From: a virus | Strand: one strand, 5' to 3' | Length of the DNA stretch: 20,341 nt | Virus record (IMG/VR): IMGVR_UViG_3300034066_002280 | Coordinates: 1-20,341 of that record | Part shown: in pieces, positions 3,225 through 16,749 of the stretch | Layout of the letters: every line of letters begins with the position of its first letter | Numbering within the stretch: position 1 is the stretch's first letter | Notes under the pieces: generated by a model | Told to the model about the DNA's origin: nothing | Database searches by the model: none | The model's input: only the letters and a program-made list of their open reading frames with translations | Program-made: the position numbers and the translations under genes

Positions 3225-6200
3225 TTACGGTATAGGGTTACCTAGATCAGGATCGTAGCCATCGTCGTATGAATCAGAACAGTAAGTTCGACCTGGATCG
3301 TCTTCTCCTTTATTATGTGCTAATATCCCGTTTGCATAATATGTATAATGGTTGTCCAATCCTATATTGTAAACTATTTCATACTCTCTATTTTCATCAA
3401 GATACATTGTAAGTAACTCTACCTCTAATCCTTCTTGTGTTAAAAGCATATCTCCTTCAGATAGCTGTGCAACTTCTAATTTATGGTCTCTCATAGTAAT
3501 ATCCGGAGCATATGAACTCCATCCTTTTCCTACTACCCATAGTGGGTGATTTCTAGCTGCTTCTATTTCTGTACCGTTACTTAATGTAAATTTAACGATA
3601 TCCTTCTTAGTAGGAGATGAGAATGTAACTACTTTACTAGTTAATGTTTCTCCTGTATTTTCATTATAAGACAATACTTCATCTCCTTTTTTAAGACTAT
3701 CAATACGTACTTGTGTATAGTCTGGTAATGTTACTAAAGTACTTCCTATAAAGCAGCATGGATCCTCGTTTTCGCGGATTGGTGCTGGTGGTATGAGTGT
3801 TACGTATGGTGTACAGTCTGGCGGTTGCTCGTTTGCAGTTATTCTAACACTTAACCTACCTGAGAATACTTCTTGAGCGTTTATAAATGCTGTTCCAAAG
3901 ATAGCTATAAACTCTGGTGTATATTCTATTTTAAATAACGCTACATTTCCCTGAATTTGAGGGGTGACTGTCGGTCCATACGACCAGACATACCTAAACA
4001 TATTAAATTGATAGCCAGGCATTTGAAAAAATGTACCTGTTCCGGATGTAAAGACAGTAGTACTGTTTGGCGGTGTTACGGTTGCTTCTGCTAATACACC
4101 CTCAAAAAGGCTAGATATCTGTATTTTATATTCCAGTTCATTTGGATTTACTCCTACAAAATAGGCTGCTAATCCGTAGTTATATGGTGTGAGCACTGTA
4201 GGACCGCCTTGCCCTACTATTGTTGTTCCCATATTTGTTCCTTCATACCAGATTAAGTTTCGATTTGTTGTGTCAAATTGCTGAGGGAGTACACTGCAAA
4301 TACCTGCTGAAACCGGGTAAGTATATGTACATGTTAATGGTATTTTCGTATCCTGTACTGTCAGTGTATATGTATCTGTAGAGAGTCCTGGGAAGGTTGA
4401 TGCAGTTGCATTTGAAAGTAGGTTATTGTATATTGATACCTGCCCCGGGTTCTTTACTATGGTTAGGTTCATATTTGATGAAAGATTCTGAGATCCTGTT
4501 ACAAACCATGAAGTAACGTTGTATTCCTCCGGTGCATTCTTAACACTTGTTCTAAAATTACTTGTAATATCAACATCACACACTGCAACTTGTATATTAA
4601 CAGATGATGTACATATTCCTTCTACTCCTGTATTTGAAGCAGTTAAAGAATGTGTAGTGTAGTTTGCATAATTATCTGTGTTAAAAGGAAATTGAAAACT
4701 AGCTGTAGGGATATTGCTACTAGTTATTTCATATACCATTGATGTTGCAGATAATCCTGAGAATAATGCTGCATTGCTCCAGCTTCCTGAATTTAGATAG
4801 TATGTATTGTTACTACTGCTGTAGTATATTTCTCCGTTTACATTTGTTAACGTACTATATGGTTTTAATATACAAACCCCTTCCTTATTCAACCATCTGT
4901 TTATGTCAAAGGTATTTCCAAAGAATGATGGTATCTTGAATAAGTTTGCTCTATTAAGTTCTCCATTTGTTACTGTAAGTCTACTATTTCTAAGTTCTCC
5001 GTTATAACTAGCTTGTTGATGATTAGAGGAACTAACGATAGCTATACCAAATGGTGTCTGTACATTCTGGTTGTACGATGTATTTAATTCTCCATCCACT
5101 ATCCCCTGTGTTCTAGAAATAAAAGCTCCGCCGTTCCCTCCTTCTGTAAATGCTGTATCAATTGAAGCTGTATATTCCGGTCTTGATCCTGATAGTATTA
5201 CTGATTTAGCTTTAGATCTCCCTAATAAATGTGGTTTAATTATTATACCTGTAGCTGCTGTTGATCTCGCAGGTATAAAATCTTTAACCATTTTAAAGAT
5301 AGTATTGTCAAAAAATTTAATTAATCTAACAAAATCCTGTACATTATAAGCATCTGATCCGCTCATAATTTGATCTGTTAATTGTACTAAGCTTCCTGAT
5401 ATACTCCCTGCTGGTGTGAATGTGCTATAGTTATCTGAGTATAGATTTCTTGGATCTCCTAAATAGTCGTCTATATTAAAAGAAGCTAGGGATGTTGTTG
5501 ATAGTGATTTAGAAATAATATAATTATCCACATTATCTGTAGGAGAGAATCCTAACTCAATTGAATGTAAATCATCTGTATACTTGTACTCTCTTTTAAC
5601 TACTGAGGTATATTGAGATAGTGTATTTCCTGCAACTATACTACCGGTGTTATCAAGTCTTACTTTATCTAAAGAACTTGTATAGTATCTATAATCTCCG
5701 TAGAAAGGTCTTTCGTTCACATTTCTTCCTCCATATACTTTAATATCAAAGATATCTGAAGGTATTCCAAAACAGTTAATTAATGCTCTCAAGCCTCTTT
5801 CAGTTCCTTTTGATTTTAAAAGTAAAGGAAGATTGTGGTAAATTCTTTTATAAACTTCTTTCTGGTAATTATCTACTGAGTAAGGTTGTATAGGTGTGTT
5901 AGATCCTGTAAGAGACCCTGTTATATAATTGTTTATGTCTTCACTTCCAGATTGATAAGCTTGCCCTATAAAAGTACTAAACAAGTCTTCTACTGACTTA
6001 TTTGACGTATATAGTTTAACTCCAAAATTCTTTAAAGCTTCTGCTACTAAGTCTTTTGAAATTCCTTTATCAAGTCTATTATCAGCATCATACTTATCTG
6101 TTACTGCTTTTGAGTATAGCCATAAGTTGTCGAAATGCTGACCTATCATATAGATAAATGTTAGGTAGTTTTCGTTGTTTGCATCGTCTCTAAGGTAGGT

Positions 6201-7469
6201 AGGTATGCTGTATGCTAATGAGTTGTAGTTTGTATTATCGTAATTAATTGCATTACTAATTTCATTAGAATACCATGTACTTACTACAGGGTTTGGTGTT
6301 AATGTACCTGGTAAGTATGTCTGTTCATTAATATACGGCTTAGTACTATTTACTTTTGGCCAAGAACTACTTCCTGATTCATAGTATAAGAATCTCTCGT
6401 AATGATCAAAATTACTTACAACTCCAGTCATTAAATTCTGGTAGTATTCTCTACTTCCTGATATACCCTGTAACCCTGTTGTTGCACTTGATCCTGAAGC
6501 TATACTTGCAGAGTAGCTGGTTAGTAAGTCTAGTTTATATTTGAAGTTCAATAGTCTTTCTTGTGCAGAAGAAAAATGTACGAAGTTACTAAAATCTGAG
6601 TGATCTATACTAATGTCTATACTTTTTTCACTAACTGCTGAGTATATTTGGCTATTAGTATTATTTACTGGATAGCTTAGTAGTTCATCGTAGTTGTAGT
6701 ATTTTGTTGGAATTACACTATCATCTACTAAATCAATATTAAAGTTAGGAGATCGTAGAGTAGGCGCTACAGTTGGTGGTGTTATTATCTCTGCATCTAT
6801 CTCGTAAGCTAGTGAATCAGATACTACCTCTACTATATTTAATGTACTCTTTATTCCATAGGTATCTGGTAAAGGTTCGTATAGTTTTACAACAACGACA
6901 GTTCCTGTAGGTGAATCTAAAGTATCAATGTTTATTGCAATGAATAAATCATTTTCTTGGAAATTCAACCTGAATCCTTCAAAGTATGATTGACTTTGAA
7001 GTTTAGTTTTAATTGCAGAAGTAAGTGTTAATACTTCTTCTGAAGATAGTATTAATGTTGATAGGCTTAACTCTGTTCTATCTGCCGATATATCTTGAAT
7101 ATAGAAATTTATTTTAGATCTATCTTGAGTATATAAATCGCTTAAGAAGTGGTAAAGTAATTTTACTCCACCTTCCCCGTACCCGTTAGCTTTACTATCT
7201 TCAATAGGGTCTATAGTTATAGCAGATGTTCCATCTTGTCCTGCAGACTGTGCTGCTGGTGCTTGTTTATACCCTCTGTAGTCGTAAATACTTTCTAATA
7301 ATTCATCAGAAAGAGATAGTATATGTAATTCAGAGAAATCTCTAGTTGGATTAAATGTACTATTGATCTGAAAGGAATCTACTAATGCTCTATCTTCTTG
7401 AGAATACTGTTCAAACCCGATTATACTTTCTGGTGAATCTTGATTAACTGTATAAATTATATCTGCCAT
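3225..7469 (-). CDS. Large baseplate wedge-like protein with C-terminal Hint domain (gp7-like by position)
   Basis: A 1414-aa frame, the largest here. Residues about 440-575 are helical, and the segment LPLLLKSKGTERGLRALINC (about 546-565) recalls tail proteins of the P2 gpI/baseplate type. Residues about 900-1230 are Ser/Thr/Asn-rich with scattered Cys and look like Ig-like beta domains. Residues 1239-1386 form a Hint domain, followed by an acidic 28-residue tail. Its place after gp25- and gp6-like genes matches T4 gp7, which is also very long; that assignment is synteny only. The gene lies 3 bases after the 110-aa gene. A Hint module in such a protein suggests autoproteolytic processing during or after assembly. 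It could instead be a receptor-binding protein. Confidence 0.85.
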   Translation of the reverse strand: MADIIYTVNQDSPESIIGFEQYSQEDRALVDSFQINSTFNPTRDFSELHILSLSDELLESIYDYRGYKQAPAAQSAGQDGTSAITIDPIEDSKANGYGEGGVKLLYHFLSDLYTQDRSKINFYIQDISADRTELSLSTLILSSEEVLTLTSAIKTKLQSQSYFEGFRLNFQENDLFIAINIDTLDSPTGTVVVVKLYEPLPDTYGIKSTLNIVEVVSDSLAYEIDAEIITPPTVAPTLRSPNFNIDLVDDSVIPTKYYNYDELLSYPVNNTNSQIYSAVSEKSIDISIDHSDFSNFVHFSSAQERLLNFKYKLDLLTSYSASIASGSSATTGLQGISGSREYYQNLMTGVVSNFDHYERFLYYESGSSSWPKVNSTKPYINEQTYLPGTLTPNPVVSTWYSNEISNAINYDNTNYNSLAYSIPTYLRDDANNENYLTFIYMIGQHFDNLWLYSKAVTDKYDADNRLDKGISKDLVAEALKNFGVKLYTSNKSVEDLFSTFIGQAYQSGSEDINNYITGSLTGSNTPIQPYSVDNYQKEVYKRIYHNLPLLLKSKGTERGLRALINCFGIPSDIFDIKVYGGRNVNERPFYGDYRYYTSSLDKVRLDNTGSIVAGNTLSQYTSVVKREYKYTDDLHSIELGFSPTDNVDNYIISKSLSTTSLASFNIDDYLGDPRNLYSDNYSTFTPAGSISGSLVQLTDQIMSGSDAYNVQDFVRLIKFFDNTIFKMVKDFIPARSTAATGIIIKPHLLGRSKAKSVILSGSRPEYTASIDTAFTEGGNGGAFISRTQGIVDGELNTSYNQNVQTPFGIAIVSSSNHQQASYNGELRNSRLTVTNGELNRANLFKIPSFFGNTFDINRWLNKEGVCILKPYSTLTNVNGEIYYSSSNNTYYLNSGSWSNAALFSGLSATSMVYEITSSNIPTASFQFPFNTDNYANYTTHSLTASNTGVEGICTSSVNIQVAVCDVDITSNFRTSVKNAPEEYNVTSWFVTGSQNLSSNMNLTIVKNPGQVSIYNNLLSNATASTFPGLSTDTYTLTVQDTKIPLTCTYTYPVSAGICSVLPQQFDTTNRNLIWYEGTNMGTTIVGQGGPTVLTPYNYGLAAYFVGVNPNELEYKIQISSLFEGVLAEATVTPPNSTTVFTSGTGTFFQMPGYQFNMFRYVWSYGPTVTPQIQGNVALFKIEYTPEFIAIFGTAFINAQEVFSGRLSVRITANEQPPDCTPYVTLIPPAPIRENEDPCCFIGSTLVTLPDYTQVRIDSLKKGDEVLSYNENTGETLTSKVVTFSSPTKKDIVKFTLSNGTEIEAARNHPLWVVGKGWSSYAPDITMRDHKLEVAQLSEGDMLLTQEGLEVELLTMYLDENREYEIVYNIGLDNHYTYYANGILAHNKGEDDPGRTYCSDSYDDGYDPDLGNPIP
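3312..3755 (-). other. Hint (intein / bacterial intein-like) domain within the 1414-aa protein
   Basis: This covers residues 1239-1386 of the 1414-aa protein. It starts with the catalytic-type Cys of block A (CFIGSTLVTL), itself preceded by a second Cys. A typical SLKKGDEVLSYN turn follows, then block B with a conserved His (EAARNHPLWV; the usual Thr of TxxH is Ala). It ends in blocks F/G (VYNIGLDNHYTYYANGILAH then Asn1386). About 148 residues leaves no room for a homing endonuclease. Penultimate His1385 and Asn1386 are intact, but the next residue is Lys, not Cys/Ser/Thr, so standard splicing is not expected. A bacterial-intein-like or hedgehog-type self-cleavage is inferred. Confidence 0.85.
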
Positions 7470-16095: not shown

Positions 16096-16749
16096 TTAAG
16101 GTTCGAACACTACTCTTAACTCCTTTTTAACCGGATTAGGTAAATCACTAAAGTATACATTTATATAAATCGTAGCTGTTTCTCCTATAAAATCCGGAAA
16201 GAAAGCCATACTCTGCTGTGGAGTATACGTATACCTTGACTTAGTACTGAAATATGTCTGCAATACTGATTGATTTCCGTACCAATCTAAATGCGGTTCA
16301 ATGGTATATCCTGCTAAGTTAAAGATAGTTGTTTGATTAGACAACTGAGGAAATGTATAGGTTTGAGTTCCAATAGCGATAGGCGTATTCATCTGACTGC
16401 TTGACCAAAGCCCTAAATACGAATAAACAGGGTAGGTCCAAGTAATATTCCCTGGTAAGTAAAAGAAATTAGAATCAAAACAAGTAACCACATCAGGAAC
16501 ATTATTAATCTCTTTAGAAGGATCTAAGGGAGTTAATTGACCTTTTACAGTGAAGTAGTTTAATCCAGCATGCTTAATATGCCAAACCCCTAGATTATCT
16601 TGGTAAGTTCCAGGGTGTCCTTGGGTATCAACCCAGAAATTTGCATTACAATCCCCAGTTAAACAGGTTGGAATTTGATCTTCAGGTGCTGTACAGCTAA
16701 AGAAAAATAAAGATACTACTAATAAAAATAAAATACGTAACTGTTTCAT
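16096..16749 (-). CDS. Phage-encoded lipoprotein (217 aa)
   Basis: The N-terminus MKQLRILFLLVVSLFFFSC is a lipoprotein signal: two basic residues, a hydrophobic core, then Cys19 as the probable lipidated residue. C29 and C34 follow. The mature part is Trp/Tyr/Pro-rich with beta-type patterns (FWVDTQGHPGTYQDNLGVWH, TATIYINVYFSDLPNP) and looks like an extracellular or periplasmic beta protein. It is monocistronic in appearance, with its own host-type promoter (TTGC-N19-TATATTTA) 22 bases before the ATG. A surface role such as superinfection exclusion or host modification is inferred. An outer-membrane spanin is less likely because of its size. Confidence 0.88.
   Translation of the reverse strand: MKQLRILFLLVVSLFFFSCTAPEDQIPTCLTGDCNANFWVDTQGHPGTYQDNLGVWHIKHAGLNYFTVKGQLTPLDPSKEINNVPDVVTCFDSNFFYLPGNITWTYPVYSYLGLWSSSQMNTPIAIGTQTYTFPQLSNQTTIFNLAGYTIEPHLDWYGNQSVLQTYFSTKSRYTYTPQQSMAFFPDFIGETATIYINVYFSDLPNPVKKELRVVFEP

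Follow-up and report, generated by a model that had tools for sequence, protein, structure and literature searches.

What can a Hint domain do to its host protein when it is followed by Lys and not by the Cys, Ser or Thr that ordinary protein splicing requires at the +1 position? The question is raised by an ORF of 1414 aa (3225..7469) in the window, which is the whole 20,341-nucleotide stretch of viral DNA analysed here. The ORF, encoded on the minus strand like all of its features given below, codes for a protein of the tail/baseplate region with a C-terminal Hint domain. Profile matches, alignment and AlphaFold/Foldseek place this domain at residues 1239–1386 (3312..3755), and its 148 aa contain no endonuclease. 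Cys1239 (3753..3755) occupies Hint position 1 and is the predicted thioester former; Cys stands there in all 83 aligned members of the wider group of related Hints described below. His1308 (3546..3548) is the block B:10 residue (His in 80 of 90 group members), His1374 (3348..3350) is the block F His, which is invariant in the alignment of the wedge homologues, and His1385-Asn1386 (3312..3317) form block G, the pair for Asn cyclisation (Asn in 79/79 and His in 79/80 aligned members). Block B reads A-R-N-H in the window: the usual B:7 Thr, present in 76 of 90 group members and in the homologues L167, L175 and L197 of the alignment, has become Ala1305 (3555..3557) in the window lineage. The +1 residue, Lys1387 (3309..3311), begins a 28-residue tail (residues 1387–1414; 3228..3311) that has eight Asp/Glu against two Lys/Arg, is of low confidence in the model and ends at the stop codon. 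The alignment shows a conserved Cys within it, Cys1397 (3279..3281). The positions that an earlier note on this DNA had given for Cys1239, the block B His, the terminal His-Asn, the +1 Lys and the acidic tail were all found to be correct.

The claim of a complete Hint domain at the C-terminus also held. The Pfam models Hint (36.3 bits against a cut-off of 29.7) and PT-HINT (34.6 bits against 27.7), whose use the earlier note had proposed, as well as the NCBIfam intein models TIGR01445 and TIGR01443, all scored above their cut-offs, so that the assignment is not due to chance. The AlphaFold model, in which 128 residues have a pLDDT of at least 90, agreed with this. Its best Foldseek match was 6y75, the Tetrahymena BIL2 (E 1.8e-12, TM 0.90 to the target), followed by the C. 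thermocellum BIL (2lwy) and then by inteins and Hedgehog; the best PDB matches of the domain by both sequence and fold are BILs. As a side observation, the Pfam model AXH (Ataxin-1 and HBP1 module) matched all 43 domains searched, namely the window Hint and 42 related ones, and its score for the window Hint was stronger than that of any Hint model. The Hint domains also have direct similarity to PDB chains of HBP1 and ataxin-1, and the literature searched yielded no paper joining the terms "AXH domain" and "intein".

The earlier note had called the host a gp7-like baseplate protein. Gene order supports the baseplate part: a gp6-like gene (phrog_6, phrog_219) lies three genes upstream of the host ORF and is itself preceded by a gene whose homologue in the Flavobacterium immuto phages is annotated as a baseplate assembly protein. 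For the gp7 likeness, gene order is the sole support, as the Pfam, PHROG, PDB profile and fold searches with residues 1–850 gave no match, gp7 included, and the model of this part was poor (pLDDT 51). The gp7 label is therefore only tentative. These N-terminal residues (4920..7469) match no family and are common to all homologues; conservation across the 80 viral-contig homologues that were kept extends over about 845–850 of them, and wide divergence follows. Homologue comparison delimits next a variable stem, residues 851–1238 (3756..4919), which is present in the Hint-bearing homologues and in the Hint-less proteins L222 and L230 and partly in the truncated L168 and L181; the stems of the other homologues differ. 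The nearest annotated relatives are the immuto phages, whose homologue has 1265 aa and no Hint.

A comparison of homologues for the presence of the domain, which the earlier note had suggested, found six other loci with a Hint (L160, L161, L167, L169, L175 and L197), all with Lys at +1, and L222, L230 and the immuto homologue without one. L167 and L169 are a pair. The L160 protein has the same length and C-terminus as that of the window, and the C-terminal module of L161 is near-identical to it. At the DNA level, L161 is ~53–75% identical to the window gene over the first ~1600 nt and 95–100% identical past ~2000 nt; because identity jumps in this way along the gene, we conclude that the C-terminal module was exchanged between L161 and the window lineage. 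The rise of DNA identity between L161 and window positions 3225–7469, from ~70% to 99% across nt 1400–2000 of the gene, marks a recombination inside a tail gene.

Homologues with only 62–64% Hint identity retain Cys1, the block B His, the block F His, His-Asn and the +1 Lys. Eroded catalytic Cys, His or Asn residues, which the earlier note had named as evidence against its proposal, were seen in none of the Hint-bearing homologues. The pairwise dN/dS of the Hint was 0.08–0.28, which shows that the domain is under purifying selection. Together, these conserved residues and dN/dS values support the proposal that the Hint is active and autoprocessing. Between L167 and L197, the Hint was 86% identical and the stem 45%, with dN rising from 0.08 in the Hint through 0.28 in the core to 0.52 in the stem. 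This pair suggested that the Hint had moved horizontally apart from the stem, but its synonymous divergence was only modestly lower (0.88 in the Hint versus 1.33 in the stem), so that much of the likeness is attributable to strong constraint and the idea was not adopted. Both stem and tail vary or are swapped among the homologues, which means that the Hint lies in a variable part of a protein that is not conserved, as is typical of A-type BILs.

The Hint-less proteins L222 and L230 (1316 aa) indicate where the domain sits in relation to its host. They have the stem in common with the Hint-bearing proteins up to approximately residue 1230 (~380 preceding residues; E about 1e-115); a Cys follows, and then a 26-aa tail that contains a second Cys. 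When the Hint was removed from the other proteins, the pre-Hint Cys paired with the Cys of L222/L230 and the second Cys lay at a similar short distance. The similarity of the tails exceeded that of shuffled sequences for L167 (p 0.0005 against L230 and 0.004 against L222) and likewise for L175 (p 0.004 and 0.03, respectively). Meanwhile, the tail of the window protein itself was no better than shuffles against L222/L230 (p about 0.5), and its direct similarity to them was dropped as stand-alone evidence; it aligns with the tails of L167 and L175, through which the link to L222/L230 runs. Another scan for stems lacking a Hint added none to these. Because in L222 and L230 the corresponding Cys is immediately followed by a similar tail, we regard the Hint as an insertion after this conserved residue. 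Cys1238 (3756..3758, position −1), which the earlier note had flagged as unusual, is thereby explained: it is a Cys of the host tail, identified in the joined-flank alignments and found also in the Hint-less relatives, and the Hint is inserted right after it. It should be noted that relatives of the L222/L230 type could also result from a precise deletion of the Hint, and that the same pattern would be seen whether or not the Hint splices.

As judged from their sequences, two other tail-protein families of the group also have Hint-less homologues. The L016 protein (2723 aa) is a homologue of the window protein (E about 1e-86). Its His-Asn-Lys Hint is internal, at residues 2086–2219, and about 500 conserved residues lie downstream of the Hint in the L016 family. 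Hints of the L016 type with Lys at +1 are carried by L413–L416, and in L411, L417 and L419 the L016-type flanks are adjacent, with no Hint between them. For the L308-type tail protein, which has His-Asn-Arg, the joined flanks matched 1527 isolate phage records, 792 of them with at least 80% of the query covered. Single-piece matches were frequent among the best, e.g., that in Pelagibacter phage Mosig, in which the matched span is too short to accommodate a Hint.

To count the residues at +1, we used a profile made from the alignment of His-Asn-Lys Hints and trimmed before +1; the count therefore describes Hints like those members. A separate DNA pattern scan selected for Lys and was for this reason left out of the count. 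The profile scan gave 96 distinct phage domains with 63 Lys and 12 Arg at +1 (75/96 basic), and after clustering at 60% identity Lys or Arg was found in 37 of the 50 clusters, compared with a Lys+Arg background of 9.6% in the same ORFs. A contrast scan for ends of the ANG[ILV]L[VAG]HN type, made without selection at +1, showed Cys, Ser or Thr as the next residue in 114 of 120 cases, most of which were in ORFs resembling enzymes such as terminases and helicases. In the isolate phage collection, protein searches with the window Hint and one other member brought up chiefly inteins located in enzyme genes, together with a few matches that were hypothetical or unannotated, so that isolates with this Hint may exist. 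Genomes of Bacteroidota also contain similar Hints, and many of these have Lys at +1. As read from these alignments, Lys at +1 is a signature of the whole phage/Bacteroidota Hint group, whose phage members lie in tail proteins and in other proteins, and is not peculiar to the window protein. The catalytic residues are almost invariant across the group at about 25–40% identity.

Several further observations concern individual members. A similar Hint with His-Asn-Lys (L338) is present in Flavobacterium sp. LMO8, the strain that serves as host of the immuto phages. The related phage Hints L296, L304, L277 and L273 have Cys1 and end near the expected place of His-Asn without having this pair. Two or three tandem Hints are found in the phage proteins L276, L278, L285, L283, L293, L268, L272, L269 and L279. 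In these, the N-terminal part has ~460–480 residues and possibly ends in a degenerate Hint itself, and the last His-Asn is followed by one Lys, with which the protein ends.

We consider the chance about even that the Hint of the window protein is an active element like the A-type BILs, inserted into the tail after the conserved Cys and probably rejoining the tail to the stem. In the folded Hint, Cys1239 would attack the 1238/1239 bond to give a thioester, and cyclisation of Asn1386 in the His1385-Asn1386 pair would release the tail starting at Lys1387. The freed amino group of Lys1387 could then attack the thioester, whereby Cys1238 would be rejoined to Lys1387, the 148 residues removed and a Cys-x10-Cys tail restored. 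The same route, with a thioester, Asn cyclisation and attack by the freed amino group, is described for A-type BILs, which are reported to be able to splice without a +1 nucleophile and in which cleavage dominates (PMC4031507); some molecules of the window protein may likewise end as N- or C-terminal cleavage products. The earlier note had taken Lys at +1 to imply cleavage and not splicing. Cleavage stands as a possible outcome, but the argument against splicing is weakened by these BILs and by the tail of the Hint-less relatives. Points against the splicing reading include the replacement of the B:7 Thr by Ala, the few group members that end without His-Asn and the failure of the window protein's own tail to exceed shuffles against L222/L230.

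Rejoining competes with the release of the parts. If the Hint only cleaves, the Hint itself and/or the 28-residue tail would be released, and the mature virion protein would end at Cys1238 after hydrolysis of the thioester. We regard this as somewhat unlikely, in spite of the mostly cleavage products that characterised BILs yield (PMC4031507, PMC7664689). Many group members also lie at the extreme C-terminus with short tails, some of only 1–4 residues, so that rejoining would gain little there, and the four Hints without His-Asn point the same way. However, the tail Cys is conserved in both Hint-bearing and Hint-less forms, and a protein of the L016 family would pay a high price for losing its C-terminal part. 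Rejoining is judged likelier than release since the tail seems to belong to the protein itself and since ~500 conserved residues come after the L016-family Hint.

The preference for Lys raises the idea that the N-terminal part is transferred through an isopeptide bond to a lysine, either the side chain of Lys1387 or that of another virion or host-surface protein, as in BIL2. BIL2 is the nearest solved structure by sequence and fold, and isopeptide bonds to Lys are reported for it (PMC8616854); Lys is also the commonest +1 residue in the group. Arg, which is incapable of an isopeptide bond, makes up 12 of the 75 basic +1 residues, which disfavours the Lys side chain as a general +1 nucleophile, and we consider such a transfer very doubtful. 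A covalent link of the tail protein to other molecules is, by analogy, possible. An inactive or purely structural Hint fold, retained as surface decoration, would agree with the loss of the B:7 Thr in the window lineage. This seems improbable given the near-invariance of the catalytic residues across the group, the low dN/dS and the existence of natural forms without the Hint.

Returning to the favoured reading of an active BIL-like insertion, the closest known systems include the A-type BILs (e.g., that of Clostridium thermocellum, PDB 2lwy). They likewise have the Hint fold, Cys1 and a terminal His-Asn, no Cys, Ser or Thr at +1, and a location in variable parts of non-enzyme proteins. The phage domains differ from them in the largely consistent Lys/Arg at +1 and in their placement in tail proteins that have Hint-less homologues. 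BIL2 from the BUBL1 locus of Tetrahymena thermophila (6y75, 6tmm), the top PDB match, has the same Cys1 and His-Asn chemistry, and its reported product also involves lysine. It belongs, however, to a eukaryotic polyubiquitin locus, has ubiquitin-like flanks and is zinc-activated, whereas the flanks of the window Hint gave no Pfam match to a ubiquitin-like domain. The class 1 mini-inteins (DnaB, gp41-1) resemble the window Hint in the fold, in blocks A, B, F and G with Cys1, the B:10 His and His-Asn, and in being insertions with an empty-site counterpart, represented here by Hint-less homologues with the same flanks (L222/L230, with the tail linked via L167/L175). They differ in that the window domain has Lys at +1 and sits in a variable tail rather than in the active site of an enzyme; Thr at B:7, where the window has Ala1305, is common but not absolute in class 1 inteins. 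The pretoxin HINT model (PF07591) matched above the cut-off, but the 28-residue tail stands in place of a toxin. The Hedgehog C-terminal (Hog) domain has the Pfam Hint match and the Cys1 thioester chemistry in common with the window Hint, which, however, has His-Asn and, with so short a tail, no room for a sterol-recognition region. Membership of these two families was rejected, as only profiles matched.

More tentatively, and with the odds against it, the group may be a distinct phage-tail type of Hint in which a conserved basic residue takes the place of the nucleophile at +1 and allows splicing or lysine conjugation, so that tail proteins would be remodelled or joined after translation. To our knowledge, few proteins are known to splice without a +1 nucleophile, and the natural use of such splicing is unclear. 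Each of the components is known; a mostly basic +1 position and a location in phage tails are undescribed as far as the literature was searched. That search, which covered few subscription papers and may have missed an earlier description, found no account of the group among the tail proteins of phages. Natural test cases are offered by phage proteins whose catalytic residues are conserved, whose +1 residue is mostly basic and whose homologues occur both with and without the Hint. If the domain is active, autoprocessing of a tail protein would be an added step in the making of contractile-tailed phages, and the group may yield new ligation tools. Elsewhere in the window, at 16096–16749, lies an ORF starting MKQLRILFLLVVSLFFFSC, which resembles a lipoprotein signal in a phage genome.
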